DNA from: Ulota crispa
Lineage: Eukaryota; Streptophyta; Bryopsida; Orthotrichales; Orthotrichaceae
Length of the DNA stretch: 64,000 bases
NCBI GenBank assembly: GCA_963920765.1
Contig: OY987243.1
Span: 1,860,001-1,924,000 of the forward strand
Reading direction: 5' to 3'
Part shown: positions 5,184 to 62,793 of the stretch, one piece after another
How positions within the stretch are numbered: the stretch's first letter is position 1
Layout: every line of letters starts with the position of its first letter
The notes under the pieces: generated by a model
Database searches by the model: none
Told to the model about the DNA's origin: nothing
Seen by the model: the letters and a program-made list of their open reading frames with translations, nothing else
Made by a program: the position numbers and the translations under genes

Positions 5184-6095
5184 TTAATCCCTAAATGCCC
5201 AAACTAGTTTCTTTTGCAATATAGCAATTTTGGGCAAGCTAATACTTATAAAATCATAATAATAAAATCTCTTAAAAGATTTAGAGGATGTATGTCCAAG
5301 GAGTAGCTTTCCAATGCAACAATTTTCAAACCATTTCAATTTGTAGAAAAAAAGCAAGGATGTAGTATGTAGTTTTGTTTGCTCAAGGGGCAGCATGGGT
5401 AAAAAAAATTACACTACACTTGAAATTTTGGGATCTTGCTCAAAGGTAGAGAGACAAGTATATCTCTTTGTGAGATTTGACCCCACCTCCTTCCATGGAG
5501 GTAATTGTTTTTGCTTATTGCCCTTTACTTCACCTTTATTGGAAGTGACTTTGTGTTGATTAAGCTTGTCAAAGCCACTCTTCTTGGCAAAAACAAATTT
5601 CTTCCACTTTTGAAGTTAGCTAAAGTCTATAGCTGAGCAATTCACATTTTGAAAGTAATGTTTTATGTGGAAGCCAAATAGTGTTGGAAAAATGGCTTGG
5701 TATGATGATTTTCTTGAAGCAAGTTTCCTATTCCAAAATTGTAGTACGTGTTCCCCAATTCAAAATGTCATGAAAATTCTTAGGCATTTGACCAACTCTA
5801 TTACAAAAGTCATTCTAAAAAGTACAACCAAATAGTGAAAAGCTCCCCAAATAAGAGCTACCCAGAGTTTGAATATCCCTAAAAAAATGTTTTCTCACTT
5901 CAAAACTTATAACCTCACAATCTGTGCAATAAACATCTTTCAAATTCTTACTACATCACAATGAAGTAGTCCAATACCAGATCCTACGTTCAATTGCACC
6001 CAAATTTCATTTTCCATTTTTTTTGTTTTTGCTATCAATACAACCCATTTTGTGTGTCTTTTGGTGAAACATAGTCATGGGCATTTAGGGATTAA
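5184..6095. mobile_element. TTAA-type (piggyBac-like) MITE, 912 bp
   Basis: Left end TTAATCCCTAAATGCCCA, right end its exact inverted complement, giving an 18-nt perfect terminal inverted repeat that includes the TTAA target. There is no coding capacity. The interior begins with a GCAATATAGCAATTTTGGGCA block shared with the foldback TTAA elements at 35510 and 44113. Confidence 0.82.
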
Positions 6096-6127
6096 ATGCA
6101 GAACTAGTCAAGTTTGAGACCCGCATG

Positions 6128-6318
6128 CATAACATTGTTAACCCTTCCTTGGGGTCCCTTTTCCTCCCCTAATAAGGATCCCAAGCAAATGAACACAAGC
6201 GACTCAGGGCCTGCACCAACCAACTTGCAGAAATTTATAACTAAAACCTCCCCCAGGTATCTGGGGAGGCATATACCTCAACTGGGGGGAGGTATATGGG
6301 CTGCTTTACAATGTCATG
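6128..6318. mobile_element. Foldback MITE related to 3264-3445
   Basis: Starts CATAACATTGTTAACC and ends TTACAATGTCATG. It carries the same CCCCAGGTATCTGGGG core and an imperfect C-rich/G-rich arm pair (CTCCCCC...GGGGGGAGG). It is more diverged than the 3264 copy and lacks the long homopolymers. Confidence 0.65.
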
Positions 6319-7199
6319 ATGAATTCCTGGGCTTGAAAGGTAAACGTATTACGGGCATCGACTTTTACCTCTGTGACAGACTCTAAATTAGATTGACAAG
6401 AGGATAGATTTTACTGAATTCATTGCCTGATTTAAGCAATTAGAGCAAAAGCACAACATATGCTTGAGGACTTTTGTCACTTCGGGAAGGGGACAAATTG
6501 GACAATGCTCCTCAGAATGTGTAACCCGAAGCCAATTATGCAAAGGAGCGTTAATTAAGCTCCCCAAAGTTATGGACACATTTAATAGAGCTTCATTATC
6601 AGGAGTTGCGATAGTCATTAGCAGGACTTTTTAAACTTTTCCATTGGTCAAGCACCACGTACCCTTGAATGCATGCAGTTGCGAAAAAGTTGGGTAGAAT
6701 TATCGACCGGACACGTTCATCCAGTGGACCAGCTATTATTAGTAAATTACATCGATGTAATTTCTTACTAATCTAGTGTTGTTTGGAGAGGGATTTGACG
6801 ATTCCATCCATTTTTCACCAAATTTTCAGCATTCCATAACATTCAGTAGCTTGCAGAGAGGTTGTCTTTCACTCTCTTCAGGTATCATCCACAAACTTCA
6901 TTGTGATAAATAATAATAATAATAAATTAATTTTTCTGACATGGCTAGCCCCCACATCGACATATGTGCACTAAATTGAGCCTTTCTTTCAGAAACTCTT
7001 TCACAAATTTAACTAAGTGTCCTCTTAGTTACCAATGGGTGTGGAATATTCCACATTCTTTCATCTGGCTAAATGAAAGAGTGTGGAATATTCCACACTC
7101 TTCAGTTAGAGGGAGGGCAGTCAGGCTAATTGCTACTAAATGTTATGTCAGTTAGCTAGTGCAAAAGCGGGATAAGATTTTGGTGGAAAATTTGCCCGG
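6319..7199. other. Intergenic DNA with strong hairpins
   Basis: Contains a near-perfect palindrome at about 6737-6772 centred on ACATCGATGT, and a double palindrome at 7037-7103 in which GTGTGGAATATTCCACA occurs twice around a CTTTCAT...ATGAAAG stem. A minus-strand ORF at 6618-6388 has a Cys/His pattern that faintly recalls the finger at the end of LINE proteins; see findings. No gene is called. Confidence 0.45.
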
Positions 7200-7909
7200 T
7201 TAACCCCCTAAAGAACCAACTTTTTTGGAGGACAAATGGATTTCAGGCATGTATCTTTAGCTCATCTACTTTTTCTAAACTTTTATTGAAGGTGTGAATT
7301 TCAAATATCTACGTGGGCCCTAGTTTTTTCTTCATTTTTATGTTTATTGAAGAAGTTAAAAATGAAATTCCAAAAACAAGCAAGATTGGGCAGTCCAAAA
7401 ATTTCTTTAAAAATTGCATTAAAAAAAATAAAAATATGAATTAGGTTCTTTAGATTTGTATATACATAGGGAGCTTTGAATCATTCAGTTTTCATTGATG
7501 AGATGAAAGTTATGAGAAGCTTTCATTTGCAGGTAGGTGTGGTTTTGAGAAATCACACCTACCCGCAAACAAAAACTTCTCATAACTTTCATCTCATTAA
7601 TGAAAATTGAATGATTCAAAGCTCCCTATGTATATACAAATCTAAAGAACCTAATTCATATTTTTATTTTTTTTAATGCAATTTCTGAAGAAGTTTTTGG
7701 ACTGCCCAATCTTGCTTGTTTTCTAGAAATTCATATTTAACTTTTTTAATAAACATTAGAATGAAGAAAAAATTAGATGCCCATGTAAATCTTTGAATTC
7801 CCCATCATCCATAAAAATTTCAAAAAATCACGCAAGGTAGTTTAGTCATAGGTACATGCCCGTAATCCTATTTGTCTCCCAAAAGGGGGTTTGGTCCTTT
7901 AAAGGTTAA
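7200..7909. mobile_element. TTAA-type foldback MITE, 710 bp (subfamily 1)
   Basis: Bounded by TTAACCCCCTAAAGAACC and the inverted GGTCCTTTAAAGGTTAA. Nearly the whole element is one inverted repeat, arms of roughly 340 bp meeting at about 7550 (block GATGAAAGTTATGAGAAG and its complement). Related copies lie at 43367-44092 and 60694-61389. Confidence 0.85.
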
Positions 7910-8847
7910 GTGATCGTTAGGTTCAGGTATGAAGAAAATACCAAATCAATAAAAATGCGAAGAGAGAGTGATGTCAACAAAGTGCATGGTCATCGTTCCA
8001 TGAACTACATTGAGTATTGCGTTTAGGTTGCCCCACATAAATTTCTAGACATTTTGCACTATGTTAATACCTACTGATTCTACAGTAATTATCAATGATT
8101 ATTGTAATACAACTTTAAAGGGCTTGGCAACAAAGGAAAGCTTAGGGAAAATAGTTAGCAACATTTAGGTTGTAATTCATGTGAAATTCTGGTAAATAGA
8201 GAGTTGCATGCGCCTCCAAGTGATCAAGTCATGAGCCATGAGATAAATTTTAAGGTAAGGCAATTTAATTGTTAAGGCAACCTACATGTAATATTTTAGT
8301 GTAAATTATGCCTTCTACAATAGAACCTCCCTAAACTAATATGGTTGGGACTCCAAGAATCAAATTAATTTAAGTAAGCTATTAGTTAATTTTGTGGAAG
8401 TGTAAATGAAGTAACTTTGAAGTTAGTGCCTGGATAGCATTATAGGTAGCTTGGGCTTTTTATATTATGGCCTTGATATTGAGATTTGCTTTATACATTA
8501 GTTTAAAGAGCATACTAGTTTAGAAAGGTTCTATAGTATTTACAAACAAATCTCTCTCCAAATGGAGTTGTTGCCCTAAGAAAGTCCAATTTAACTAACC
8601 TTTCAAAGTGCATCTAGAGCATTTTAAATAGAGAAAATTTGGTAAAAACCCTTGTATTTTGCAATCTTTTGATGGATATCTTTACTTTTTTTGAAAATTA
8701 CAAGAATATCCTTGTAGAGTTTATGGAGAGGGACGTTTATCAATACTTTAAAGTTGCTTGCATGTAGACTTGATAATGTTGTAAAACACGCCTAGTGCAA
8801 CTTCAAGAGTAGTAAGACTTCACTATTTTTTACATAACAAGTACTAC
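7910..8847. other. AT-rich intergenic DNA
   Basis: No gene or defined repeat. About 8633-8750 vaguely resembles the interior of the GGGAAATTT MITE class but has no clear inverted ends. Confidence 0.35.
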
Positions 8848-8851
8848 TTAA

Positions 8852-11460
8852 CCCCTGAGCACCCTAGCAACCAAATTCTCATCGCTTAGGATTTATTTTT
8901 CAAAAATAGTAGCCTGGATCTTGATTGGACTGTCATAATTTCTATACCAACGGGTTCTGGTACATCTCTATGATTGCACAAAATGGAGGTTCAGTAATTT
9001 AGGGGCCCGCACGCGTCGAGTTAATCTGCAAATAAATGAGTCATACCCCAAAAAATTGCGTTCCAAGTTTTTTGTGCTCACAGGGTGACTGGAAAGATTG
9101 GTAGTAGCTGGTTTGCAGGCGAGCTACGCGATTTCGTGCCATGTTGAGAGGGAACGGCTCTCCCGCATAGCAGTTCAAATGTTTGAGCGAGCGTGAGAGG
9201 GGCGGGTCTTGGTTGATTTCATGAGAGCAGTTTCCTGGTTTTTTGTTGTCCTTTTTGTAACAAAATACTCAGAGATCATGAGCAGTAATGCGTGTCAATT
9301 TCCCTTCGCCGGTTGTGAGTGAGTGAGGGTCAATTTTAGTGTTACGGAGATCATTTACAGCCGTCTTTTAGGATTGGAGCCAATTGCAAGCCCGCAAGTG
9401 CGTTGCTGTACAATCTGCTTTTAGCATCATTGCCGGGAGTGCGCGGCTGCCTTCACGTTGTCTTGATGGAAATTTTTTTATCATATAAGTACTCGTTATT
9501 TATTTATGTTTGTGTTGATTTCAATAAATCAACAGTTGTAGCAAAAGAAATGGTTGTGGTGAGGACCACGATTTGGTAACAGCGCAGTGGCCATAGATTT
9601 CAGTGCACTGCGTCGTCTTGTCACATGCACAGCTTAGAGGGATAGGTAGCGGATTGGCTGGGCCAATTTCCTGCCTCACTAGCTGCCAAGCTATGGGCTG
9701 CCATCTCCGCTTGACAAGTTTGATGGAATTTGAATCCGAATCAGCGAGCAGCTAGAAACAATTGTTTCTCTAGTCAACCAAATTTATGACTTGGCAACTG
9801 AAGACAAGCGTTTAATGCTATTATATGTCTGTAAGAGCACGTGGCTATTTTAGGACGATGTTTATTTTTTAATTTAATTATTTTTATATATTTATCTAGA
9901 TATTTTGGAAGGTTCATATATTTTGTCTTTGTTTGAATTTGAAATACTAAAGATTTAGAAGTGAATAGGAAAAATGTAAAAAGAAAAGGAGTTTGGCATC
10001 TATGGTGGAGTTAGGATAGAAAGGGGCATGGGCTGATGTGCCCCACTTCCTTACCTTAAATAGGGTCAAAATTATAGAGGAAAGATTTCTTAGTTGTTGG
10101 AAGTTAGTGTATGAGTGTTACTCAGAAGAGGAAAGAAATCCTAAAATTTTGATGCGAGAGAATTTTTGTGTATATATGATTTTAAATTGAAATTTGTAAA
10201 AATTGTTCATTATTTGATTACCTTTCCAAAATGAGTTTGCAAATTTGATTTGGAGCTGTGATGCAAAAGTTATGAGTGTTTGAATTTTGAAGTAAAAAAG
10301 CCAAATTATGAAGAAAAGCTGAGACTTCAACAAACCATAGCTTATGATTTGTATATCATTTTGCAACAAGATTTGAAGGAAGTATTTATCTTAGTCTTAG
10401 CTATTTAGAAAGTGCTTAAATTCAAGATTTGAAGCTTGGAGGAGAAAATTATGGAGGTATGAAAGATTGGAGGTGGCTGTTTTTTTGTTAAGAGAAGGCC
10501 AAAACTTTGAAGAGCTTCAACTTTTGAACAATATGAAATTTTCTTTTCAAAATATTAGAAATGATAATTTGTTGTTATAGCTTTCCGAATTATTTTTAAT
10601 TATTCCATTTAGAGTCTTATTAAAGAAGTTATAGTAGGTAGAAATTGAGAGTTTGGATGCTTTCTAAAAAATTGAGATCCACACTTTGATTGACTAGAAC
10701 TTACGGATAGAGTTTTATTTTGAAGTCAATGTTTAGTTTGCAAGGAAGAAGAAGAGCCTCTATTTTGAATCCGCATAACTTTTGCACAGTAGCTTAGATT
10801 GAGTTGAAACTTAAAAAGACGTTAGAGGATGAGATGAATTTTCTAAATTGCTATTACACTTAGCATTTGGATACTTGAAACATTTGTGGCACTAGATAGA
10901 AGGTCGCAGTCTTTCTAAGACTTGTTATTTGTGATTTTTCTCATTGTTTTTATTAAAACATGAAGACTTGAAGACTTGAAGACATGAAGATTTGAAAATC
11001 TGAAGATATGAAAACTTCAAGAAGAATTATTTGGGTTTATTTTTATTTATGTGTAGGATGTGGCTTTGTGATGCCTAGCCAATTTGGAGGTTTATTTGTC
11101 AATTCATTTCCATTCTATTTTGTAAACCTTGTTGTCGGTAGTTTGGGTTAAACCAAATTTAAACTCATTTATTGTCGTAGTAACAAAGTGAGATTGATCA
11201 CCCATATGGTCGAGATTTGCTCTGTTCTCACGATCTAGAGTTTTGGCAAGCAAATCCTGAATTTGAATGTAGGATATTGTCATACGGACGGTAATTTGTG
11301 TTTGTTATCCCAATCTACCCGTCTTGTATCTAGTGAGCTCTTATCCCTACCTTGACCCTTATACCCTTAGAGCCAGCCACATGATAGGCCAACGAAAAAC
11401 TAAAAACTAAAGATCTGAAGAATGAAGATAAAGACCAAAGACGAATTTAGTCAGTAATGC
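8852..11460. other. Non-coding left part of the piggyBac-like element
   Basis: About 9000-9780 is clearly richer in G+C than its surroundings and includes TTTGGTAACAGCGC, which resembles a retrotransposon primer-binding region; a captured or nested fragment is possible. From 9840 the sequence is AT-rich. About 10959-11024 is a degenerate tandem run of TGAAGACTT-like units. No intact gene was seen. Confidence 0.4.
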
Positions 11461-11819
11461 ACAATTGCAACAAGACACCTTGCGTGTTCCCAAGGTGCGC
11501 TCTTCTCAACCCGACAACGTGCATTGTATCTACCCAACGATGGCGGCTACTGGAGGTTTACGGTGCTCTACAATCCCTTCACAACCTCTTTGCCCCAGCT
11601 GTCGTGCTTCATTGGAGGAAGTGGCTGAGATTTTAGAATTATTGACATTGTGAGCAATCAACTCCTACAAAGTTGTTTGAGCAAGTGACAACGTTGCAGG
11701 CGTGCTTGGAGGAGGGCTTCTTACTCGGACTAACTAAGTTGGCAATGCGCCACTATTGGCCTACTGAACCTCAGAGGAACTCTTGGCGCTATCTCTTTTA
11801 GAAGTAGTGTTTTTGTTGC

Positions 11820-12158
11820 TTGAATGTGTCTTATAGGATTCTTGAAGGGCATCCTCTTGGGCTTCCTCCGCTGGTGAATGATTTCCTAAAGACAAAGTGG
11901 TGGCCTACAGCAGATCACAACAGTGATCCACAAAGCAATGAAAAATTGTCTAGTTCAAGAGGGTCTGCATTGGGTAATCTAGTTGAGGACCATGCAGAAT
12001 TAGTCATGGAGGCCTCTCATCAAGCTCAACAAAGACCACTTCAAGTACGTGTTACCGAAGGAAGGGGGATCACAGATGGAAACCTTGTAGAATCACACCA
12101 CAGCCCAGGTCCCCGTGAAAACGTTGGTGTTCCAGAGCTATCCAACAGTGTTGATTGA
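11820..12158 (+). CDS. Short ORF inside the piggyBac-like element, function unknown
   Basis: 112-codon open frame with moderately acidic, Ser/His-rich composition and no recognised domain. It is colinear with the transposase downstream, and could be a piece of an N-terminal exon or an accidental ORF. A neighbouring shorter frame at 11465-11653 contains a CxxC pair (LCPSC). Included only because this stretch has codon-like composition unlike the AT-rich DNA around the transposon. Confidence 0.25.
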   Translation: MNVSYRILEGHPLGLPPLVNDFLKTKWWPTADHNSDPQSNEKLSSSRGSALGNLVEDHAELVMEASHQAQQRPLQVRVTEGRGITDGNLVESHHSPGPRENVGVPELSNSVD

Positions 12159-12461
12159 GCGGGGAGCATAGAGGGGTAGAATGCCCCATGGGGCACATGG
12201 CGTGGGAGGGATAGGCTAGGCATTCCGCCGCAAGTCGGAGGCGTCAGTAGATGGCGTGGTCGAGTGAATGGACTTCTGCCAGCAAGGAGAGACGAGAATC
12301 ATGCGCCCATAAATGTTGAAAGGAACAATAGTATTTTTCAATTAGACTTGAATTGCCCACCAAAATCTAATAGAAGCGGGTCTCAATTTGGAGAATCAAA
12401 TTTACAGGATTGTACAGCGACTCCATCAAGGCCGGCTCAAGGTTGAAGGCATGGATGCGGC

Positions 12462-13169
12462 TTGTTGAATTTGCCAAAAGAACGATGTCCAGGGGCGGAG
12501 AGAGAGGACTCAACTGTCAACGTCTCTCGCAGGATAGGTCGTGCAGTAGGAGCTGCACTGGGCGGTCGCCGCAAGCAAGCTGCGGCTAGAATACCGGCTT
12601 CAAGTGCTCCTTCCAAAGGAATGCCTGCTGATGTTCCAGCCTTGGAGGCCATCCCCGAAGCACCTCTCAGATCGTCTACACCCGCAACTCAGTTGACTAG
12701 AGCTGCATTGTGCGGTCGCCGTAGGCGAGTTGCGACTAGGACATCGATAACAAATGCTCCTTCCAAGGGAATGCTTGGTGATGATTCGGCCTCAGAGACC
12801 ATCTCCAAAGCGCCTCACAAATTGTTTATATCCGCAACTCATTCGACTAAGGCTGCATTGGGCGGTCACCGCAGCCGAGCTACGGCTAGAGCATCGATAG
12901 GAAGTGCTCTTTCTGAAGGAATGCATGGTGATGATCTGGCCTTGGAGAGCATCTCCAAAGCGCCTCCTAGATGGTCTGCGCCCGCAATTCATTCGACCAA
13001 GACGTCTCTTCATTCACTACATCGTCGTCCAAATCCTCTAGGGAGTCCTTGTCAACGAACACCAATCTGTGGAGCGGATCGATGTCACCCACAACTGTCG
13101 CTAATGTTCTCTCCGACTTCCGGTACTGGCCATCGACAACAACAACAACGATGCAACATTGGGGGGTAA
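12462..13169 (+). CDS. ORF with three basic 50-residue repeats, in the transposon
   Basis: 235 codons, the longest uninterrupted frame outside the expansins. Its middle is built of three tandem 150-bp units (12543-12692, 12693-12842, 12843-12992), each encoding a variant of xTxAALxGRRxRxATR, then APSKGM, DD, ExISKAP and PAxH; a truncated fourth unit follows. The units are Arg/Ala-rich and basic, as in nucleic-acid-binding tails, but I recognise no family. It lies on the same strand as, and upstream of, the transposase remnant and may be an N-terminal part or second ORF of that element. That the frame stays open through diverged repeats hints at past selection on the protein. Confidence 0.45.
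   Translation: MLNLPKERCPGAEREDSTVNVSRRIGRAVGAALGGRRKQAAARIPASSAPSKGMPADVPALEAIPEAPLRSSTPATQLTRAALCGRRRRVATRTSITNAPSKGMLGDDSASETISKAPHKLFISATHSTKAALGGHRSRATARASIGSALSEGMHGDDLALESISKAPPRWSAPAIHSTKTSLHSLHRRPNPLGSPCQRTPICGADRCHPQLSLMFSPTSGTGHRQQQQRCNIGG
12543..12992 (+). repeat. Tandem repeat, 3 x 150 bp
   Basis: Three head-to-tail units of exactly 150 bp; GCTGCA-TTG-GGCGGTC-type blocks recur at 12553, 12703 and 12853. The unit length is a multiple of three and preserves the reading frame of the ORF that contains it. Confidence 0.8.
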
Positions 13170-14782
13170 GTGGTTGTCTACCTCAGCTTCATGCAAATTA
13201 TCTTACAAAAAAAATGTATAACTTGAGACATAATTAGGCTAGAGGATTTGATTTACCATGATTGTTCACGTCAATTATTCCCAGCATGTCAACATAATAC
13301 ATACTCACTCTCGACAGCAGTGCTGGCATGGTTTCTTCTATTAGGGTTTTCAATGAGAGGCCAAAGAGAGCAACCTGTAGGGAATTCTAGCACTTCTGCA
13401 TTTCATGCCGTTCTCCGTTTCTATATCCTTGGCTCCGGCCACTTCGTGGAATTTTTTTTTTTTCTTAGTTCGACTCACTTGTAATTAGCTGCTTGTGTTC
13501 TATTACCCTTTTATTTGTGAATGCACAATTGGAATGAAGAATGCCCGCCATGGTTCAAGAAGTTTGGGTCCATTGTCGTCTTGAAGGTTCAAGAGATTGG
13601 GACTTGATGAATGATCAGTCCTATGCCATCCAGTGGACATTCTTACAAACAATGTGAGATTTTTCCATATACATTTCTTCATTTGGACTCTATTGCTCGC
13701 AAGTGTCAACAATGGCAACTACGATAGAGCCTTGCTCATGTTTGTACTATGGTGTGCTCATTTTTTTTCCTAGAATTAATCGCTTTGATCAATTCTAGTG
13801 GGAGATTTTTGTTGGTGTTTTGATTCTATGGAGTCCATGCATGTGATCTTAGAGGATTACTAGGGTTCTAATGTTTTGGAGTGTGAGGGAGCTTCTCTGT
13901 AATTGGTGGCTAGAGTACTGCTGTAGAGTTTGGGTACATGCGTTCTCTAGAGTCAACAACAAATGAAAGTGGGACTTCAACAGGGAATCGGTCTCCAAAG
14001 CAAAAAAAACTATCTCTTTGCAGCTATTCAATAATGTCTGGTTTGCTGTAGTCAATGGCCTTGCAAGTCCTGGCTTTGGCCTTCCATCCCCGAGTTACAC
14101 ATTCAGAGCTCTTTGGTAGGAAAGGGGTTGCTGCAATTCAAAGCTCATCCTCAAAGTCTACGTTGTCATATTTGTCTACGTTGGACAAAAGTACGGTCCT
14201 CGTTGACGTTTGTTTGGAGTTCACCAAGCCCCATGCACGCTTCTCGTACTAGGTTACTTGGGTTTGCATAGAAAGTGCTTGTAGGTGCTCTTTTAGCAGT
14301 ACTCAGTTATGCTATAGTTGAAAATGCCGTGTCCGTCCTCACTGTTCGTGTGTCCATTTGATTGGAACGCGGGGCTTTCAAGTTTCCAAGCAACTACATA
14401 GGAGACTCATGCCATGGAGAATAGCTGCAACTGCCATAAGTCTGACCAATGGCCCTCTGGTTTCTAAAACTCTGTCCTTGCTGCTCATTTGTGCATCAAG
14501 GAAGGACCAGCTGCTGCAAGAAGTTTGCAGCAGGCTTTTGCGGCCTTTGCTCAAGTCCAACAATGGCTTCAGGATAGCAACATTGAAGCGGGTGGGAACG
14601 AGCAGCTCTTGCCACAACTACAAGGTCCTTTTGGTTGTCTCTCCTACGGGCCTCTATCTACTACAATGTGGGTGCCGTTGCAGGTGTTGGGATACAAGGC
14701 AAGTGTTTGTAGAGGGCAGTAAGAAGTAGCAGGGGAGCCGTTGCAAAGATGGTAGGAAAATCGTGTTTCATACTTTTTTGTT
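13170..14782. other. Transposon interior, coding status unclear
   Basis: Contains several short frames on the plus strand (14055-14252, 14358-14729) without recognisable domains. GT...AG pairs are available, so part could be intron or diverged N-terminal coding sequence of the transposase. Nothing definite can be called. Confidence 0.3.
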
Positions 14783-15076
14783 ATGTTTCAGGGAGGCATA
14801 GGCAAGCACAAGGTGCCAGTGGTGGAATGCAGGGACATTAGCACCGTTGCTCTGCACTGCCCTGATGAGAGCGGCACAGGGCCATCACAAACGCCTGATG
14901 ATGCTTTTGATGGCGCAATTCTGGAGTTCCCAACCCAACACCTGCATGAAGACTTTGCAGCACCGTTGCCCCGACAGCCACCGACAAAGTTTGGTGTAGA
15001 TGGGATAGGAGCTGCTGAGCAGGAATTTTTTCCTGACGGCAACGACAGCTCTGATGCTGATTGGAGGGGAGACTAG
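14783..15076 (+). pseudogene. Possible acidic N-terminal part of the transposase
   Basis: 97-codon frame ending in an Asp-rich run (DGNDSSDADW). Acidic, low-complexity N-termini directly before the catalytic core are usual in piggyBac transposases, and the core begins about 260 bp downstream. The match is by composition and position only. Confidence 0.4.
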
Positions 15077-15337
15077 AGGGATTTTGCTAGAGATGCCTCC
15101 TCATTGGATTTCACAAACTCCGATGAGGACTTGGATGGTAGAAACCGTGATTTGCTCCATGAGATTGGTTAATACAAGGGAGTAGAGGGACTTGATGACA
15201 TGGACTTCATGTCTAGGTATGTCAATTAATATTGGCAGTGTACTGAGAGCACCCTACTTGGAGATTGGGAATCCTTTCATGGACCATAGCCTGGCTCAAA
15301 GAGGGTGTGTCAAACCAAGCCTTCAGCAATTTATTTC

Positions 15338-17000
15338 TTTGACTTGTTCTTCACTCCCCGCATAGTGGATTGTCTAGTACAATAGATGAATTTGTACACA
15401 TCTCAAGATGGCACAGGACGCTCTCAGACCACAAACAGCGGACCCCTCTAGATTCCCACTTGTGCTTTGGAGATGCGGGCATTTATCTGTGTAGCAATTC
15501 TCATGGGCATCAAGGCGATGCCCATGATACAAGATTATTAGAAGGAGGACAAGTTCTTGCATTGCTCCATTATACCTAGGGTTTTTACTAGGAATAGATT
15601 TGAGTTTCTCCTCTGTTGTCTGCATCTCATGGACAACAGCATAATCGAGCATGATCGAGCATCCCCAATGACAACAAGCTGGCAAAGTGCAGATGGATTC
15701 TCACTAAGTTTGTGATGCAGAGTCGTGCGTTGTACAATCCAAAGAAGTTTATGACATGTGACAAGATCATGGTGGCGTACAGGGGGCATTTCTTCGATTT
15801 CAAGCAGTATATGCCGGCAAAGCCAAGCAAGTATGGTTTAAATTTTTTGCGGTAGTCTGCAAACCTTTGAGGTTGGTTTTGTACATTACTCTAGATTTTA
15901 GTAGAAAATAAATGTCTTTATCAATATTCAACTATATTATTTGTGAGCTTTTGGTGGATATGTTTCTGAATTTGCATAGAGGTAGATTGTATGTAGATTT
16001 TGCAAGTAAGAGTGTGTTTGTTGGTAGTTTCAGAAGAAAACCAATGTTTCCCATAAACTAGTAGCTAACAATGAACTAAATGCATGTTTTTTTTGCAAAC
16101 TAAACCAGGTACATCTACAACATTCTACTGTATGTGGGGGCGTCTGGATTGCCAGATGTGGGACAGGGTGAACAAGTGGTGCATGAGTTGACGGTGGGCC
16201 TAGACGATTTTGGACATATTGTCGTATGTGACAACTTTTTTTCATCCCCAAAGCTACTCAAGGACCTCTATTGCCGTGGGATTTGCGCTACCAAGACATT
16301 GAGGCAGAACCGCTTGGGATTGCTAGGTTCATTTTTTGGTCAGAAGAAAGGCAACCATCCTCGCAGGACACTACTGTGGAAGATGCACATGCAACGACAC
16401 ATGGCTGTCACCTGCTGGTATGACTCAAAGCTAGTGTACATCTTGTCTACTTCTACAGATCCAGTAGGCGATGGTGCATGGTCCATGCGCTGAGTGTAGA
16501 GTGTTTGCAAGCCGATCACATCCACATCACATCAAGTGGAATACTAGATCCACATGCGCGGTGGAGATGTTGTAGATCAAATGCGCACTAATTACAGTGT
16601 TCACTACCACTCGCATAAATGGTGGCACAAGTTCTTCTTCTTCATTGTTGACAGCTGGCTCAACAATGCATGGGTCCTACTCCGGCACAACAGAGTTACT
16701 CGTGGGGAGGCAATGTACGGCAAGCGACTCACATCCCACATGGACTTTGCACGTGCTTTGATTGCCCCATGGTTAGATGAACCGTGCACCTCTTGAGTAG
16801 AATGCCTCCGCCGTCCTAGGGCAATTCACTACAGCAGCCTGGAAGTTGGCGTTTGAAGACAATACATTGTTTGCAAGAGACAGACCCTATTCTAGTGCAC
16901 CGCTTGTGCAGGGGCCCACATGTGCATTGACAAGTGTTTTGTCAAATTGCATATACAAACTAGGTGGGCCTTGCGGGTGACTCAACTGGCACAAGTTTGA
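15338..17000 (+). pseudogene. piggyBac-type transposase (DDE_Tnp_1_7), broken
   Basis: Cut-and-paste transposase remnant. In order: FDLFFTPRIVDCLVQ (15338-15382), TAG, MNLYTSQ; AFICVAILMGIK; TRNRFEFLLCCLHLMDNS; a frame change near 15640-15670; TCDKIMVAYRG with the first catalytic Asp (15760-15762) and QYMPAKPSKYGL; stop 15853; about 255 bp without homology (intron or insertion); YIYNILLYVG (from about 16110); VVCDNFFSS with the second Asp (16230-16232); TKTLRQNRLGLL; MRGGDVVDQM with the third Asp (16566-16568); HKWWHKFFFFIVDSWLNNA; and a Cys-rich finger CKRQ, CTAC, MCIDKCF, H (16872-16952). In-frame stops stand at 15383, 15539, 16491, 16545, 16794, 16854 and 16893, all TAG or TGA. The stop at 16998 may be the natural end. 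It cannot encode an active enzyme as it stands. Confidence 0.93.
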
Positions 17001-17866
17001 GATAGATAGACATTTGTATTCACATTTTGCAAGTGCCAGTAGTATTTGCTCTTTATTGTTTTTAGGTTTTGTTGGTGATGGCTCCTCTCCCCTAGGCTTG
17101 GAGTTTTCCATGGTCATGACTTGCCAATATGTAACCCTTTTTTTCCACTCTAGTGTAGAGGGGACATCCTCAACCCAAAGTCTATAATTTAGTGGAACTT
17201 ATTCTAGAACACCTTTTTTTATTCGGGCCTTTGGGCCTTATTTGCATTTGTGGGATTTTGCACTTGCTTTTTTCAGAACCTACCCCACAGTTCTGAGAAA
17301 GGTGTTGCAAAAAATGAGGCAGCCAAGACATAATCAGACTATTGTATTAGTAGTCACAGCTCTCGCAAGGCAAGAACTGCTGACAGGCTGGCTGAGCACG
17401 GTGGGAGCTGGCGTGGAGCTGACACCGTGTCAGTCTGGCCATATACTGCTACTGGTCCTCGGACCCACAACCCCAGGAGGTTCTCCGCATTTGAGGAGCT
17501 CCAGGAGACTCGAAACCTCTCAATTTCACTTGAAATTTTTTGTGGACATTATCAACCCATAAATGAATCAGCTTGCTAAATTTCATTGAGAATTTTGGCG
17601 GCACTAAATTGCACGGCCAGTTTGAAGGCCGTGAACTTTGAAATTGCATCACATTTCAATTTTTTCTTTGGACTTTGAATGTTATAATCTCCTAATGTAG
17701 ATGGTCAACTCCCCTAAAATTTGGGCAGAGGGTTCACACCCCAGCCAACGTTGAAATGTTGCGGTCAATTTGAGCAGATCTCAAAATCGAAAAAGATTCG
17801 AACCTTGAGGCCAGAGCAGCTCCCTCTCAGAAAAGTAAACTTGTTTTTGGCCTGGGTGCTCAGGGG
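17001..17866. other. 3' non-coding part of the piggyBac-like element
   Basis: No gene seen. It includes an inverted pair around GCACGGCCAGTTTGAAGGCCGTG and ends in the right inverted repeat (17854-17870). Confidence 0.45.
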
Positions 17867-17987
17867 TTAAAGCTTGCATGCGCAAAGATTGCAGTTTTTG
17901 ATGTCATTATGCACACTTGCCAAGTGCCAACTCTATTTGATGCCAAACCCGTAGAATTTGACAACAAGCAGTGCAATTGCTGTATTC

Positions 17988-18078
17988 TTAACCCATAAAC
18001 GTCAAAGCGGACGATTTCTGTCCCCGGGAATATACGGGGCTGTGTACCCACAGTCACATCCCAGCGTTTAAAGGTTAA
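17988..18078. mobile_element. Very short TTAA-type element, 91 bp
   Basis: Starts TTAACCCATAAACG and ends CGTTTAAAGGTTAA, the imperfect inverse. The interior has a CCCCGGGAATATACGGGG hairpin. It lies 117 bp past the right end of the 9-kb element. It could be an extreme deletion derivative. Confidence 0.55.
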
Positions 18079-18184: not shown

Positions 18185-18455
18185 TGTTGAGGTAAGTATT
18201 CTATTAATGCGCTCTCCACATAGTTAATTAGATTTCACTGGAGTTTACTTTAGTAAAGGGATTCCATGGACCAATAGTAGAGAAGGACTTTTACTTTCTA
18301 TCTTTAGTATTCCCTTGTATATAGTAGGCAAACCCTACTTGGATAATAACACTTGTTACTTCTTCTCCTTACATACTTTGTTATATCTCTTTTGTGTCCT
18401 CATTGTGTTTTCTGTTCCCAACACTTTCCTTAGAGTTTGTAGCTCTATCACAACA
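18185..18455 (+). repeat. 5' LTR
   Basis: 271 bp, from TGTTGAGGTAAG to CTCTATCACAACA. It matches the 3' LTR with only scattered differences. Confidence 0.92.
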
Positions 18456-18571
18456 CGTTATCAGTACAAAGCTCTAACCACCTAGTTTAACGTGTTAAAC
18501 AACACGTTATCGGCACGCTCTTTTGCTTTAATCTCTTTGAGGGAGTTTATTAGTACTGTCCTTCATCCCTC

Positions 18572-18781
18572 ATGGCTACTTCACGTTCTTCTGCTGCCAC
18601 ATCTGTTGTAGTGCCAGCAGCTACTCCTAACATTGAGACACCAAGGCTTCAGCCTCTTCTCTTTGCACCATTGGAGGTTGACAGGAGCAACTACCTACTA
18701 TGGGCAAAAAGTGCAAAAACAATTATTATATTCGGGAGCAATTATCACGGTGCATTGTTTCTGACCAACCTCCTTCTATAA
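18572..18781 (+). pseudogene. Copia gag fragment
   Basis: 69-codon frame starting MATSRSS and containing APLEVDRSNYLLWAKSAKT, the hallmark N-terminal block of plant Copia Gag proteins. It stops soon after. Further on, about 18864-18900, CYKCKFQVGH is a damaged CCHC zinc knuckle in which the final Cys is missing. Not a functional gag. Confidence 0.75.
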
Positions 18782-18922
18782 TTACTTCTAATTTTTACCT
18801 TTGTATTTTGTAAAACATTGCTTTTGCTTCTTTTACTAATAACAATGATAAGCGTCCGTTAGAGATGCATTCTTGCTACAAATGTAAGTTCCAAGTGGGC
18901 CATGTGACATAATACTAAAGAA

Positions 18923-19112
18923 GTGGAAACAACCTTTGCTCAACAAGTGGTTTATATTGGATTGCGATCCGACCACATGAGTTGTGGAAATAGCCTTTGT
19001 TGGAGCAAGAGGTTTGTATTCGATTGCGGTCCAACCACCTAATGATAAAGTTGTAGAAACAGCCTTTGCTATGGGCACATGGTTTGTACCGAATTGCAAT
19101 CCGACCACCTGG
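18923..19112 (+). repeat. Three degenerate tandem repeats inside the LTR element
   Basis: Units of about 61, 69 and 59 bp starting at 18923, 18984 and 19053. Each contains GTGGAAACAGCCTTTG-like sequence and ends near GATTGCGATCCGACCACCT. Function unknown. Confidence 0.7.
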
Positions 19113-19783: not shown

Positions 19784-20053
19784 GTTGAGATAAGTATTCT
19801 ATTAATATGCTCTCCACATAGTTAACTAGAGTTCACTGGAGTTTACTTTAGTAAAGGGATCCCATGGACCAATAGTAGAGAAGGACTTTTACTTTCTATC
19901 TTTGGTATTCCCTTGTATATAGTAGGCAAACCCTACTTGGATAATAACACTTGTTACTTCTTCTCCTTACATACTTTGTTATATCTCTTTTGTGTCCTCA
20001 TTGTGTTTTCTATTCCCAACTTTTTCCTTAGAGTCTGTAGCTCTATCACAACA
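19784..20053 (+). repeat. 3' LTR
   Basis: 270 bp, starts TGTTGAGATAAG and ends CTCTATCACAACA. Confidence 0.92.
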
Positions 20054-20058
20054 ATTTG

Positions 20059-36230: not shown

Positions 36231-36273
<43 letters not shown>

Positions 36274-44092: not shown

Positions 44093-44112
44093 AACTAGTT
44101 TCCAACCTCTAT

Positions 44113-47712: not shown

Positions 47713-47790
47713 ATATATACATACATGGGAACCTTTGAATTATTCAATTTTGATTGATGAGTGAGAAGATTTAGTTTGCGGGTAGGTATG

Positions 47791-48844: not shown

Positions 48845-49745
48845 TTAACCCTTTAGAGACCACCTAACCATATTTGGTTCAGGAGAATAGTTTTTGGTCT
48901 ATACAGTAAAATCGCTCAATATTTTGGAAAATAATCTTGAAGAACGCTTGTGATCACAAGAATTTTGCATCGACAATAGAATTGGATATAGGAGTTGATA
49001 AATAAAGGTGTTTATACATCATGGCCTCAAAATACGTATCCAAATTTGGTCAAAGATGGATCAAAGCAACAACACAATACATTAGACATCCAAGAAGAAT
49101 GCCACATTTCAATTGTGCAATCTTATAAAACTTCAAATTACTCACGAAATATGCTTGTATTGTTTCTCTATACAGTAGTAGTACAATTGTACTATTTGAG
49201 AATTCATTGAAATGATGTTATCACTTTATTTTTAAAAAAGTTCATCCTACATTCAAGGCCAATTCTTGATTGCTTTCACCGATTGGATTTTCAATAAAAA
49301 AATTCAAAATTCTTGTAGAATTGTTTTAGGGTAGCAAAGAAAACGGGATTTTTGACCCTTTTTGTCCACTTAGGTACACCTTGTGATTGCTATTTTTGTT
49401 TATTTTGAGTAAAACTAGTCTTGTTGAAAAGGTGGGAAACCCTACTTTCTAGAAATGTAAGACTCTTCTCAATCAAAACTTGCATGGAGCGCTACCATTC
49501 AAAACCACACAAGCATGAAAAACTAGAGATTTCCCATATATGGCTCACTCAATCATTGTAATATTTCACCTCCAATGGTAAATCTAATTGAAACTTTGAT
49601 GCATTGTAGCAAACAAGGTGTCCTTCACATTTGTACGGTTGGATTATTCAAATTGGGTCCATATTTGTTTCAAATGCACATCTAATCTTACTGCCCCGAT
49701 TTCTAGTGGGTTTTGAGAAAATGTGTGTGGTTGTTAAAGGGTTAA
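48845..49745. mobile_element. TTAA-type MITE, 901 bp
   Basis: Left end TTAACCCTTTAGAGACCACC; right end inverted reads TTAACCCTTTAACAACCACA. No coding capacity. Confidence 0.72.
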
Positions 49746-50001: not shown

Positions 50002-50934
50002 TTAACCCCTAAAGTATTGAACACCCTTTTTTGACACCATAGGATTTTTGGGCAGCTCACTACCAATGGAGTTTTCATTGTTTTCTTTGAAATTTTCACA
50101 CATGAAGTGTCCAAGGAGTAGCTTTAAGACACAACAGTTTTCATAACTTTTGACTTCATAGTTCAAAAGTTATTGCATGATATGTAGTTTTCTTTGCTTG
50201 GCGGATAGCCAAAAAACTTCTTTAAAAATTTACATTTTTTGAATTTAAAAAAAAAAAAATTGGTTCTTTAGATTTACAAATACTTGGAAATCTTTGAATC
50301 GTTCTATTTTGATAAATGAGATGAAAGTTATGAGGAGATTTTGTTTGCGGGCAGTTATGGATTCTCTACTCTAAAATAAACTTTGAAGTTCATTAATTTA
50401 CTCAATTTTCAATACTTTAGGAAAAAAACAAAACTAGAAGATGTAGAGTATGTGTTTATCACAACATTATAACCATTGGGATTGGAAATTTTCATTTCCA
50501 TAATTAAGTTCTTAACAATTTAGTGGTTTGAATCATTCTCTACTTCTTTTTACTAACTATTGTTCTTCCATGTGTTTTACAATTCCAAATGATTTGAAAT
50601 TTTTTGAGTGTGTACCCAACTTGCTTTGAAGAACATCCAAAAAATTACAACCATTTTGGAGTTTTTTCATACAAATATGACCTTGTGAAGTGCAGCTGCC
50701 CAGATTTCTATAGAGACAAAAAATGACTTCTTGTTAATTGAAACTCAAATATCTAACAATCTACATGGTGAAGACTCTTGAATTTTTTTTTCATATTTGT
50801 TGGTACTAGTGTACTACAAGATCTCACAGTTTCATTTGCCAAAAAAAAATTCTCTAAAATTTGGTACTTGTACTAGAAATGATAGTTTTGGAACGGTTTT
50901 GTTGCAAATTTGAGCTTAGTGCTTTAGGGGTTAA
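50002..50934. mobile_element. TTAA-type MITE, 933 bp
   Basis: Left end TTAACCCCTAAAGTATTGAAC; right end inverted reads TTAACCCCTAAAGCACTAAG. The left half matches foldback subfamily 3 (CCAAGGAGTAGCTTTAAG, TTCAAAAGTTATTGCATG), the right half is unrelated: a chimera or half-replaced foldback. Confidence 0.8.
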
Positions 50935-51889: not shown

Positions 51890-52294
51890 TATATATGTGA
51901 TAGTGTTGATGGTTACACCGCATCTATACAATCTGAACTTCAAAAATTTACAACACTTATTCATAAATAAAACTGATGATGTCCCCCCTTTTGGTGTTGG
52001 TTACGCAGAAATATGTCAGCAGCACAAAGAGGGGCAATTTTTCAGTAAGTTACGATGACTAGACAAAAGAACTGGGCAATGAGCTGGCAACACGTGCCTC
52101 GTTAGTTCGAAATTGGCTTGGAACCCATGCAGTGCACCTTTACAGGCTTTACTGGCAAAGTGCATTTAAAATTTAGTGTAGAAATTAGCCCCCAACGAAG
52201 TGACTTGATAGGAGAATGATATTTAGTGAGCGGGGATCCGTGAGCTATGAGCTTATATTGTTTCTCAAAATATTCAATTTCATCTACAATCATG

Positions 52295-54146
52295 TATAGT
52301 GGCCTCCAATAAAGTATGTCGGACCCTCTTCTAGTAGTTAGAGCTCATGTCACGTTATGACACAAAGTTGAGGTCAGTTGGCCTTATTTTATATTGATTT
52401 TTTTTAATATTTCATTCCTACCCCCAATTCCAATCAAGCATATAAAAATTCAACCCCAAAAATTTTAAATTCAAAATTTGATAAATAGTTTTGTGTCACA
52501 AATCATGGTTTCACATGGTTTTACAATAAAATTGATTGAAAAACATTGATGATGAATTTTGGAAATTTGATTGCATGGGTATATAGGTAACATCCATACG
52601 CACATCCATATGCACATCTTTCATGCTAAAAAAACCCCCTCAAGCAAAACAAAGTTATCTTCAAACGGTTAAGTGTGACTTGTGATATGTCCAAACTTTG
52701 TAAAATAGATATTTTTTTTAAATAATCAAATTTTGCTATTTGGCTCATACATTGTGACTAAGTTTGTACTTTTGAACATGTTGTTGTGTTTGTTTGGTGA
52801 AAAGCTAACTAAAAATTAACCCCTAAAGGCTCAAGGAGCCCACTTTGGGCTTTATGAGAACTTGGGCAGGCTCTCTTGACTTCATAATTTGGAAAATTTT
52901 CATGAAAATTTTAGGATGGATGCTACTCATCATAATCTACATGTGAAGCTTTGTTTCATGTCATTCCAATAAGTAATGCAAAAGTTATAAGGTTTTTTCA
53001 ATTTCAATGTCAAATCAGGCAGCAAAAAATATTCTTTAAATTTTAAATTTTTATTTTTCTATAATTGTATAGAATGATACCTACTCAAAAGAATTTGAAT
53101 CACTCAATTCCAAATAATGAGGTAAGAGTTAAAAGGAGTTTTATTTTGCGGGCAATAGGAAGAGGGTAGAATAAACATATAAAGTTATCCTTTACTCTCA
53201 ATTTTGGAAATTTCAAATGAAAATGAAAATTAAAGTTACTGATTATTTGTTAGAGCATTCTCAACATTGGGATTAACAATTTTCAAATTCTTCCAAAACT
53301 TATTAGCATATTAGTTACATCTTATATTCATCAATACCTTTCACTTTACAATTTTTGTAAAACTGGATCCAAAGTTTTTTTTGGTTAGTTTTTTTATATA
53401 TATGCTTTCAACCCGTTTTCCAACATATTGCAAAAATTGCACAAGAAATACAACATACATGTTTTTCTCTAAAAAGTTTAAAAAACAAACTTCACCTTCT
53501 AGAAGGATTAGAAAAGCGTACATTTTGAAGTTTGGGCAAATTGATATTGCAATTGGTGGGGACATTCATTCTAAAATTTTGGGACAATGTAGTTGTGCAA
53601 GTCAAATAAAAGATCCTACGGTTGGATTTGTGAAAAAAGTAAGTTTCAATGAATATTTTGACCCTAGTTTGGGGACTAGTATTTTGAAGCAGTTTTGGGC
53701 CTCTAAACACAAAAGAATTGTAGGGGTTAAAAACATCTATTTTACAAAATTTGGGCATGCCACAAGTCACACTTAACCGTTTGAAAATTAGCTTTGTCTT
53801 GCTTAAGGGGGTTTTTTTAGCATGGAAGATGTGCATATGGATGTGCGTATGGATGTTACCTATATACCCATGCAATCAAATCTCCAAAATTCATCATTAA
53901 TGTTTTTCAATCAATTTTATTGTAAAACCATGTGAAACCATGATTTGTGATACAAAACTATTTATCAAATTTTGAATTTAAAATTTTTGGGGTTGAATTT
54001 TGATATGCTTGGTTGGAATTGGGGGTAGGAATGAAATATAAAAAAAATCAATATAAAATAAGGCCAGTTGACCTCAACTTTGTGTCATAATGTGACATTT
54101 GCTCTAACTACTAAAAGAGGGTCTGACATACTTTATTGGAGGCCAC
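52295..54146. mobile_element. Large foldback element with a TTAA MITE in its loop
   Basis: The left arm (about 52295-52697) and right arm (about 53761-54146) are inverted copies running from TAGTGGCCTCCAATAAAG and CTTTATTGGAGGCCACTG at the ends to AACGGTTAAGTGTGACTTG and its complement at the loop. The loop holds the TTAA MITE at 52816-53730. No coding capacity. Confidence 0.8.
52816..53730 (+). mobile_element. TTAA-type MITE, 915 bp (subfamily 2), nested
   Basis: Starts TTAACCCCTAAAGGCTCAAG and ends AGAATTGTAGGGGTTAA. Close relative of 25862-26781. It sits inside the loop of the foldback 52295-54146. The right-end frame is readable here too (KAYILKFGQIDIAIGGDIHS, DPTVGFVKK, LKQFWASKHKR). 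Confidence 0.87.
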
Positions 54147-55040
54147 TGTACAGTACCCAAAAGAAAGAGTACATAACACCCTTTTATGGCATCCAAAGAA
54201 GTATGTATAACTATGTATAATAAAGAATATAACTCACATTTCATTCTCACATTTTTAATATGCGATCCTCATGCAATCTTGATCAAGCATACTAAATTTC
54301 AGTTACTAAAACCCAAAATCCTATTTTTGGTAAATGGTTTTGTGTCAAAATCATGGTTTTATAAGAAAGTTGATTAATAAATAGTGGTGATGAATTTTTG
54401 AGACTTGATTGCATGGATATGTATGAGACATCCATACGCACATCTTTCTTTCAAACAAACATTTCCAAAAAAATTCAATATTCCTTCTGTAGAGATTTTA
54501 ATGTCAGAGTGATTATGACCAAATTTAGTGAAATACAGATTTCTTCATGAAAATTAGTTTTTGGCAAAAAAAATATCATCATGTTTAAAGGTGCAAACTT
54601 AATCACAATGTCTGAGTCAAATACAAAAACTAATTTCCATGAAGAAATATGTATTTCACTAAATTTGGTCATAATCACTCTAACATTAAAATCTCTACAG
54701 AAGGAATATTGAATTTTTTTGGAAATGTTTGTTTGAAAGGAAGATGTGCGTATGGATGTCTCCTACATATCCATGCAATCAAATCTCAAAAATTCATTAC
54801 CACTATTTATTGATCAACTTTCTTATAAAACCATGATTTTGACACAAAACCATTTACCAAAAATAGGATTTTGGGTTTTAGTAATTGAAATTTGGTATGC
54901 TTGATCAAGATTGCATGAGGATCGCATATTAAAAATGTGAGAATGAAATGTGAGTTATATTCTTTGTTGTACATAGTTATACATACTTCTCTAAATGCCA
55001 TAAAAGGGTGTTATGTACTCTTTCTTTTGGGTACTGTACA
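54147..55040. mobile_element. Large foldback element, 894 bp
   Basis: Starts TGTACAGTACCCAAAAG and ends CTTTTGGGTACTGTACA. Arms of about 400 bp are nearly identical, so translations of the two arms (54186-54377 plus, 55001-54807 minus) give the same peptide. The arms share blocks with the adjacent foldback (GACATCCATACGCACATC, AAATCATGGTTTT), so the two are related. Confidence 0.87.
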
Positions 55041-55094
55041 TTGGGCCCTATAATTGTGTATTTTAAACTTTTAACTTTTGCAAAAGTTTTTTCT

Positions 55095-55636
55095 TTAACC
55101 CTTAAGCACCCAATTGACCATTTTCTAGTCACTACCCTTTTTTTTTGGGCTGCTTGAGACAAAAAAAATCAATTTTTTTTCTTCTTCTTATGATAGAAAA
55201 TCAAGTCTACTTTCCAACTTAACTTGAATCATGTCAATCCAAGTTAAACTCCACCAAGGAGAACTTTTCAAAGACAAACACTTCAATATCTGCTATTGTT
55301 GTAAAATTTACTATTTTGGGAAACTATTGATGTTGTCCCCCTTGAAAAGATTGCATTTTTCAATTTCAAGATAGAATGTCTATTTTTAACCAATCATACC
55401 AAAATTTGAAATTTATGAGTAAAATTTGTAATTTTGGTGAATATTAAATGGTAAATGCTTCTAAATTCATTACATAAAAATTCAAAACTTTTTTTGAGTG
55501 TTTGACCATATGGAAAATTACTAAACATCATTATTCATATTTTCTCTTTTGAAGAAAACTTCATCAAAGTTACAGAAATACCATTTTATAACACATCTAT
55601 GTTTTGCCCTTACCCCCTTGAACTTTTAAGGGTTAA
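55095..55636. mobile_element. TTAA-type MITE, 542 bp (subfamily 4)
   Basis: Left end TTAACCCTTAAGCACCCAATT; right end CCCTTGAACTTTTAAGGGTTAA. The left end shares AGCACCC with the 9-kb element, a sequence link between the MITEs and the transposase-bearing element. Homologous to 38981-39545. Confidence 0.78.
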
Positions 55637-58963: not shown

Positions 58964-58965
58964 TA

Positions 58966-60655: not shown

Positions 60656-60693
60656 ATGATGCCAACTAGTTCCAAGTTAATTCAAGAAATATG

Positions 60694-61389
60694 TTAACCC
60701 TCAAAGGACCATTGTCCCTACAGGGGACAAATGGGATTTTAGGCATGTACCTATAGCTAAACTACTTTGCGTGATTTTTTGAAATTTTTATGGATGATGG
60801 GAATTCAAATATGTATGTGGGCATCTAATTTTTTCTTCATTTTGAAATTTATTAAAGAAGTTAAAAATGAATTTCAAAAAATGAGCAAGATCAGGTAGCC
60901 CATTTTTTTTTTTAAATTTGTATTTAAAAAACTAAAAATATGAACTAGGTTCTTTAGACTTATATACAGGTGGGGAGCTTTGAATCATTCAATTTTGATT
61001 AATGAGATGAAAGTTATGAGAAATTTTTGTTTGCGGGTAGGTGCGGTTTTTCAAAATTTCTCATAACTTTCATCTCATTAATCAAAATTGAATGATTCAA
61101 AACTCCCCACCTATATATAAGTCTAAAGAACCTATTTCATTTTTTTATTTTTTCTAAATGCAATTTAAAAAAAAAAATTGGATTGCCTGATCTTGCAATT
61201 TTTTTGAAATTCATTTCTAATTTCTTCAATAAATGTCAAAATGAAGAAAGAACCAGATGCCTATGTACATATTTGAATTCCCCATCATCCATAAAAGTTT
61301 CAAAAAATCACACAAAGTAGTTTAACTATAGATACATGCACAACATCCCATTTGTCCCCTAAAAGGGAGCTTGGTCCTTTAGGGGTTAA
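60694..61389. mobile_element. TTAA-type foldback MITE, 696 bp (subfamily 1)
   Basis: Starts TTAACCCTCAAAGGACCATTG and ends TTGGTCCTTTAGGGGTTAA. The foldback centre lies near 61050 (ATTAATGAGATGAAAGTTATG and complement). Confidence 0.87.
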
Positions 61390-61883
61390 TAAAACAATTT
61401 ACAGTAATTTAGGTTGATTTAGTTTGGTGTGGCATAGTAATTATTGACTACTATCTCAAAAAATGTGTGACTCGGATGGCCAAAATTCCAAGGAAATTTT
61501 GCAAGCATGTCGTTCAATTACAATGTGTGTGAAGAATGTCACACTACAAAAGCTCCACCACCAAATTGCTACTAGAGGGACGGCAAATTTTTTGACCAAA
61601 ACCCTACTTGAAAAGCAAAAATAAGATGCATATCAAACCTTCACACACTAATTGGACAAAATTTATCTAAATTGATAAGAACTACTCTAACATTTTTCAA
61701 AACCTTGCACTATTTATATTATACTGTGCAATTGCAAAAATATATATCTTCTTGGCAATTTTACTTCTTGCATCGTGCAATGAGCCAAGTTTTAAGCCAT
61801 CTGGTTGCAGAGTACTTTGTTGCAATTCCCATTTTCTGTAAATTTTTGATGAAATTGTCACAAAGGAAATAAAAGCATGTTAC
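61390..61883. other. AT-rich intergenic DNA
   Basis: Nothing recognised. Confidence 0.4.
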
Positions 61884-62793
61884 TTAACCCCTAAAATTCT
61901 TTCATGTTTAGAGGCCCAAAACTGCTTCAAAATACTAGTCCCCAAATTGGGGTCAAAATCTTCATTGAAACTTATCTTTTGACAAATTCAACCATAGGAT
62001 CTTTTGGTTGACTTGCACAAGTACATTTTTCCAAAATTTTAAAATGAACATCTCCACCAATTGCAAAATCAATATGCCTAAATTTCAAAATGTAGGCTTT
62101 TCTAGTCCTTCCATAAGGTGAAGTTTTGTTTTTCAAACTCTTTAGAGAAAAACACATATGTTGTATTTCTTGTGCAAATTTGGCAATATGTTGGAAAATG
62201 GGTTGAAAGCGTATATAAAAAAATTAACCCAAAAAAACTTTGGATCCATTTTTACAAAAACTGTAAAGTGAAAGGTATTGATGAATGAAAGATATAACTA
62301 ATATACTAATAAGTTTTGGAAGAATTTGAAAATTGTTAATCCCAATGGTGAGAATGCTCTAACAAACAATTAGTAACTTCAATTTTCAATTTCATTTGAA
62401 ATTTTTCAAGATTGAGAGTAAAAGATAGCTTTATGTTTTTTCTACCCTCTTCTTACCTTCATTGCCTGCAAAATGAAACTCCTTTTAACTCTTACCTCAT
62501 TCTTTGGAATTGAGTGATTCAATTTTTTTTTAAGTAGGTATCAATCTATGAAATTCTATTTAAAAAAAAATTAGAATAAAATTTTTGCTGCCCAATTTGA
62601 CATTGAAATTGAAAAAACCTTATAACTTTTGTATTACTTATTGGAATGACATGAAATGAAACTTCACATGTAGATTATGAAAGTAGCATCCATCCTAAAA
62701 ATTTCATGAAAAAATTCCTAATTATGAAGTCAGTAGAGCCTACTTGAGATTGTATAAAGCCCAAAGTGGGCTCCTTGGTCCTTTAGGGGTTAA
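61884..62793 (-). mobile_element. TTAA-type MITE, 910 bp (subfamily 2), inverted
   Basis: Starts TTAACCCCTAAAATTC and ends CCTTGGTCCTTTAGGGGTTAA. It is the reverse-oriented relative of 25862-26781 and 52816-53730; the shared frame is on the minus strand (62157-61972). Confidence 0.86.

Follow-up and report, generated by a model that had tools for sequence, protein, structure and literature searches.

TTAA-ended miniature elements in the moss Ulota crispa: probable non-autonomous members of the piggyBac superfamily

What are the many short, TTAA-ended units in a 64-kb stretch of the genome of the moss Ulota crispa, and which enzymes moved them? The stretch, called the window here, is C2:1860001-1924000 of a 274.8-Mb assembly and comprises 64,000 bases with 63% A+T. 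A preliminary description made from its letters had read it as one burst of about 18 miniature inverted-repeat transposable elements (MITEs) with the TTAA signature of piggyBac. The observation of TTAA-ended MITEs is confirmed with small corrections, and the piggyBac interpretation is supported, on a basis that includes the broken piggyBac-type transposase of a large element in the window. Very probably the units belong to the piggyBac superfamily as non-autonomous MITEs, about 0.4-1.7 kb long, which form several subfamilies with TTAA-CCCYT-type inverted ends and were most likely moved by piggyBac transposases of the same moss.

The window was searched for TTAACCCYTRAR, exactly and with at most one mismatch, and the sites were paired. 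It contained 19 exact sites (12 forward, 7 reverse) and 35 sites with at most one mismatch. Both ends were placed for eighteen short elements and for one 9,023-bp element; one further element lacks its left end. Under a fixed rule (facing ends 80-1,600 bp apart) there were 14 pair calls with 13 distinct right ends; one call (44113-45580) joins two elements. The same rule applied to 50 first-order random sequences as a chance control gave a mean of 1.9 pair calls and a maximum of 6. Borders were compared in 10 alignments of related copies with 150-bp flanks. In five comparisons both copies stopped aligning precisely at the TTAA on either side, and two overran by 1-2 bases; the other three ended within one base on one side and 19-98 bp short, inside the element, on the other. 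These alignments bear out that the ends coincide with insertion borders. The elements are listed below, with the strand where it was assigned.

5184-6095: MITE, 912 bp, left TTAA common to an oppositely pointing end at 5187; paired ends
7200-7909: foldback MITE, 710 bp, near full-length palindrome; self-complementary 83% over 10-702
8848-17870, plus strand: piggyBac-type element, 9,023 bp, with a broken transposase; TTAACCCCTGAGCACCC at both ends
17988-18078: possible element, 91 bp, weak; paired ends only
20966-21885: MITE, 920 bp, left end TTAAGTCC; 82% identical to L050:8145-9069, first 19 bp excepted
23236-24477: MITE, 1,242 bp, containing an internal duplication of 285 bp, right end diverged, TTAAACCC; 84% identical to the MITE L055:7347-8315
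25862-26781, plus strand: MITE of subfamily F1, 920 bp; 87-90% identical to 52816-53730 and 61884-62793
35510-36291: foldback MITE, 782 bp, with GTAA on the left; self-complementary 84% over 24-746
38981-39545: MITE, 565 bp; 80% identity with L052:4435-4978 from end to end
41972-42340: MITE, 369 bp; paired ends only
43367-44092: foldback MITE, 726 bp; self-complementary 82% over the whole length, borders exact against 60694
44113-44642: MITE, 530 bp, mostly foldback, right end CTCA; self-complementary 80% over 44-488
44639-45580: MITE with a CATCGCC-type right end, left TTAACCC lost where it adjoins 44113-44642; junction letters
46642-48382: probable element of 1,741 bp with TTAAGCCC at the left; ends paired, first 175 bp resembling 43367 and 60694
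48845-49745: MITE, 901 bp; 85% identity with L039:229-1137 from end to end
50002-50934: MITE, 933 bp; 80% identical end to end to L050:756-1744
52816-53730, plus strand: MITE of subfamily F1, 915 bp, within a foldback repeat; empty sites found
55095-55636: MITE, 542 bp, kin of 38981-39545 (78% over 469 bp)
60694-61389: foldback MITE, 696 bp; self-complementary 85% over the whole length
61884-62793, minus strand: MITE of subfamily F1, 910 bp; end pairing and copy comparison

Seventeen of the 18 paired starts in the preliminary description have a partner end: 5184, 7200, 17988, 20966, 23236, 25862, 35510, 38981, 41972, 43367, 44113, 48845, 50002, 52816, 55095, 60694 and 61884. The remaining one, 44639, is the left edge of 44639-45580 and has no TTAA end. 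Four of the pairs have flaws: 17988-18078 is weak, 35510 starts with GTAA, 44113 has CTCA at its right end, and the right end belonging to 23236 (24477) has diverged. Position 46642 had been taken for a single end; a plausible partner lies at 48382. Together the 19 pairs, among them the 9-kb element, total 23,428 bp, which matches the coverage of about 23 kb given before, and the short elements make up 14.4 of the 64 kb. Two of the open reading frames (ORFs) listed for the window, all of at least 120 amino acids, overlap the MITE 52816-53730. The junction of the abutting elements at 44630-44650 reads TTTTAGGGGCTCATCGCC, the expected palindrome GGGGTTAACCCC minus TTAACCC, as if deleted at the palindrome.

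The elements had been described as one family; they fall into several subfamilies, spread genome-wide, with the terminal TTAACCCYT common to all. Subfamily F1 (25862-26781, 52816-53730 and 61884-62793) has at least 40 full or near-full copies elsewhere, with 90-93% identity (best 40 of 1,307 candidates). The elements at 7200, 35510, 43367, 44113 and 60694 are palindromic over all or most of their length and are thus foldback MITEs, while those at 50002, 48845, 38981 and 20966 have counterparts on other chromosomes that align with them over all or nearly all of their length. Short length, high copy number, inverted ends and a target duplication, by which MITEs are recognised, were all found. 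At C3:2131517-2133897 (genome G000), two F1 copies point in opposite directions and enclose shorter pieces of F1.

The target site was characterized with the joined flanks of 14 sites (one at 52816-53730, seven other window sites and six more), using as empty sites paralogous copies within the same genome, not alleles of other individuals. The filled site at 52816-53730 reads TTAA-element-TTAA. With its joined flanks, the junction was crossed in all 40 scored candidates (best 40 of 3,047), and exactly one TTAA was present in 4/4 aligned empty copies. With those of two insertions in stretch L050, the junction was spanned in 41/41 rows; six aligned empty copies were gap-free over the four bases, four reading TTAA and two TCAA. 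According to the preliminary description, a duplication other than TTAA at empty sites would speak against it. Run on paralogs of all three insertions, this check gave 10 closest aligned copies, gap-free over the four bases, of which eight read TTAA and two TCAA; the piggyBac signature is thus upheld by a single four-base target. On empty sites alone, duplications of 4-bp TTAA and of 3-bp TAA look alike, but the outer base distinguishes them. Of 32,582 NTAACCCCTAAA sites, 95% have T at this place (30,972 TTAACCCCTAAA versus 1,610 VTAACCCCTAAA). Adjoining elements share one TTAA at 5184/5187 and 62790/62793 in the window and, elsewhere, at L042 507/510, L051 6286/6289 and 6643/6646, L052 683/686 and L055 7347/7350, where it is mutated. 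Back-to-back elements with one TTAA are what one would predict were new copies to insert into the TTAA that borders an existing element.

The genome contains at least 120 matches to the transposase domain PF13843 (DDE_Tnp_1_7); the best 116 of 528 candidates of the profile search were scored. Thirty aligned domains were 27-81% identical (median 35%), and three aspartates, in columns that we take to be the catalytic ones from piggyBac, were conserved in 27/30, 22/30 and 26/30 of them. Frames of L040, L048 and L054 matched PF13843, and the open frame of L040 matched the structures of piggyBat (PDB 9c0f, 2.6e-24) and piggyBac (PDB 6x67, 7.6e-20). Eight transposase loci were analyzed with their flanks, picked for score or open frame, not randomly. 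TTAA-CCC-type ends were present on both sides of the transposase at five of the eight, one with a degraded end. These elements and the window's transposase domain are as follows.

Window 8848-17870, plus strand: two-ended transposase element, the 9,023-bp element above
Window 15326-16673, plus strand: broken PF13843 domain, split into three pieces, with a gap of 240 bp; E 1.3e-13 for 16104-16493, tblastn with 30 relatives
L042 507-7502: two-ended transposase element
L048 1663-6689: two-ended transposase element, ends TTAACCCCTCATCGCC and TTAACCCTTCATTGCC
L054 11-7505: two-ended transposase element
L055 1695-7350: two-ended transposase element, right TTAA mutated, left end less certain

The transposase pieces of the 9,023-bp element lie at about 15326-15846 and 16086-16673. 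The L055 transposon ends at 7350; an end at 8315 was rejected, as 7347-8315 is a separate, adjoining MITE. The transposase frame of L054 is interrupted at 4644-4912 by letters that resemble intron borders (GTAAG ... CTCCAG), and this interruption sits near the place in the domain where the window copy has its 240-bp gap.

We suggest that transposases from related 5-9 kb piggyBac elements of this genome most likely cut the MITEs out and pasted them into TTAA, so that one TTAA would be left on either side of the element. Diverse transposases would have mobilized not only the 5-9 kb elements that encode them but also, in trans, the MITEs. Excision would restore the TTAA, and amplification probably took place in several rounds.

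The elements extend far beyond the window. The genome-wide search for TTAACCCYTRAR ends that had been proposed found 53,219 exact ends, against 1,409 with the reversed pattern as control. TTAACCCCTAAA alone occurred 30,972 times (77 reversed) and TTAACCCYTCATYGCC 400 times (0 reversed); among the places listed, this CATYGCC-type 16-mer formed 11 facing pairs, 952-982 bp apart. In four 10-kb stretches chosen arbitrarily, 16 pairs were called, which had 14 distinct right ends, and about 8.8 of their 40 kb lay in elements when one pair was taken per distinct right end and chance pairs were counted. Elements may number in the tens of thousands genome-wide and make up about a fifth of the genome, figures that are extrapolated from 104 kb and not counted.

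A local burst confined to the region of the window, as first described, is very improbable. Exact ends are indeed denser here, at 0.30/kb against 0.19/kb genome-wide (1.5 times the genome mean), and the calls in the arbitrary stretches were uneven (7, 3, 5 and 1), but the genome-wide end counts and the similar elements in those stretches indicate a genome-wide population. The elements could also be PIF/Harbinger MITEs with a 3-bp TAA or TTA duplication and an outer T by chance, since the empty sites alone fit TAA and TTAA alike. PIF/Harbinger insertions are marked by a 3-bp TWA duplication with a free outer base; here the outer base is fixed as T, and transposase elements with these ends carry PF13843, a domain that matches piggyBac and piggyBat, so we give this origin still less credence. 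That the ends are interstitial telomere-like repeats is the least credible of all. CCCTAAA is the plant telomere unit, and the end does contain CCCCTAAA, but the units are single, terminate elements of 0.4-1.7 kb, face each other in pairs and follow TTAA, and no tandem runs of the unit were present among the ends listed. CACTA elements have ends that begin with CACTA; this class was rejected, as the ends here begin with CCCYT after TTAA.

Another rival concerns the source of the transposase. The MITEs may be of piggyBac type and yet have been moved by partner elements now lost, today's transposases belonging to other subfamilies with loosely similar ends. When 25 MITEs were compared with seven transposase-bearing sequences, none matched the interior of a transposase-bearing element; the only matches were the abutting L055 MITE and two short ones within that MITE. 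After TTAACCCY, the transposase elements continue with TGAGC, CATCG, TGCA or TTAGC, versus TAAAG or TAAAT at most MITE ends of the window. Lost partner elements stay a serious rival because no MITE was traced to the interior of a transposon. On the other hand, the CATYGCC type joins both groups, the 16-mer of the 11 facing pairs being the same as in the L048 transposase ends, and the transposase loci with flanks number just eight. On balance we regard lost partners as unlikely, and movement by the present piggyBac transposases of the moss as the better explanation.

Several further observations weigh against that explanation or against a strict TTAA target. Most scored transposase matches carry stop codons, so that present transposase activity is not demonstrated. 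L039 and L041 have a right end only, their left ends not being found, and L040, the locus with the PDB matches, shows neither end. The more diverged copy L004 has ATAA in place of TTAA, and TTAA is not conserved among the distant relatives (62-66% identical) of the host repeat. Empty paralogs were obtained at only 3 of the 14 joined sites queried. Seven window sites gave none: 14 of the 43 rows of that query were the window's own halves, one short row lay on the right flank of 61884, and 28 matched the left flank of 20966, ending at query positions 333-345 (junction 335-338). Four further joined sites were absent among the matches listed (best 40 of 3,621). The other eleven sites are mostly uninformative because only the best candidates are listed.

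The elements resemble the piggyBac superfamily (piggyBac 6x67, piggyBat 9c0f) in the TTAA target, the CCCYT-type ends, the PF13843 transposase and its three aspartates. They differ from known piggyBac in the moss host, in ends that read CCCYTAAAGG, CCCYTGAGCGCC or CCCYTCATYGCC, and in the very many short derivatives. The one LEAFY DNA-binding domain found in the genome (two exons, one locus) has 154/157 residues identical to PDB 4bhk, which we take to be Physcomitrium LFY1, and so places the host among the mosses. According to the part of the report available, coral CMITE elements are likewise piggyBac-linked MITEs with one element inserted at another; they belong to an animal, and their interior is more conserved than their ends, whereas here the ends are common to subfamilies (PMC2872659). 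mPok of Daphnia Pokey, as presented in the part available, also comprises MITEs of a piggyBac-superfamily element, in an animal and partly tied to ribosomal DNA (PMC4912750). For a land plant, the passage available on the fern Ceratopteris uses the piggyBac label for 1,230 fragments of 122 kb, printed as 0.00% of the assembly, and names no MITE (PMC6890710). Parts of two other papers mention piggyBac in plants in passing (PMC10140906, PMC10813416), and 'piggybac' in the available part of a Niphotrichum paper proved to be the word piggybacking (PMC10619864). A literature search that left out most subscription papers and all preprints yielded no paper describing MITEs of piggyBac type from a moss. 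PiggyBac MITEs are thus known in animals, and their large scale in a land plant, the part that was not found in print, has hardly been reported.

A survey that covered 207 plant genomes, including four from bryophytes, deals with likewise short, high-copy elements with inverted ends, sorts MITEs into five superfamilies plus Micron, and does not use the words piggyBac or TTAA in its main text, so far as available (PMC12550479). Under this scheme, a genome with mainly piggyBac short repeats would be misfiled or left unclassed. The moss Ptychostomum knowltonii was assigned 29.13% terminal inverted repeat (TIR) elements, CACTA having the largest share, by EDTA and RepeatModeler2, according to the part of the report available (PMC11704416). 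Tentatively, piggyBac and its MITEs might predominate among the DNA transposons in this moss, where they would occupy perhaps about a fifth of the genome, and likewise in other mosses, filed there as CACTA or other TIR elements by pipelines that have no piggyBac class. To our knowledge, EDTA has no such class. Tens of thousands of TTAA-type ends together with diverse transposases offer a way to study the spread and silencing of piggyBac in a land plant and its influence on genes, and the moss transposases could provide plant-adapted piggyBac enzymes.

Other features of the window were also recorded. A small long terminal repeat (LTR) element at 18185-20053 has direct repeats at 18185-18455 and 19783-20053, about 271 bp long and 96% identical, which start with TGTTGAG and end with CACAACA, and is flanked by ATTTG on both sides. 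Large foldback repeats lie at 52293-54152 and 54143-55044, with arms 93-96% complementary; the first of them yielded 3,047 candidates across the genome. Expansin-like reading frames occur at 1142-1543 and 31502-31924, both on the minus strand and about 30 kb apart.

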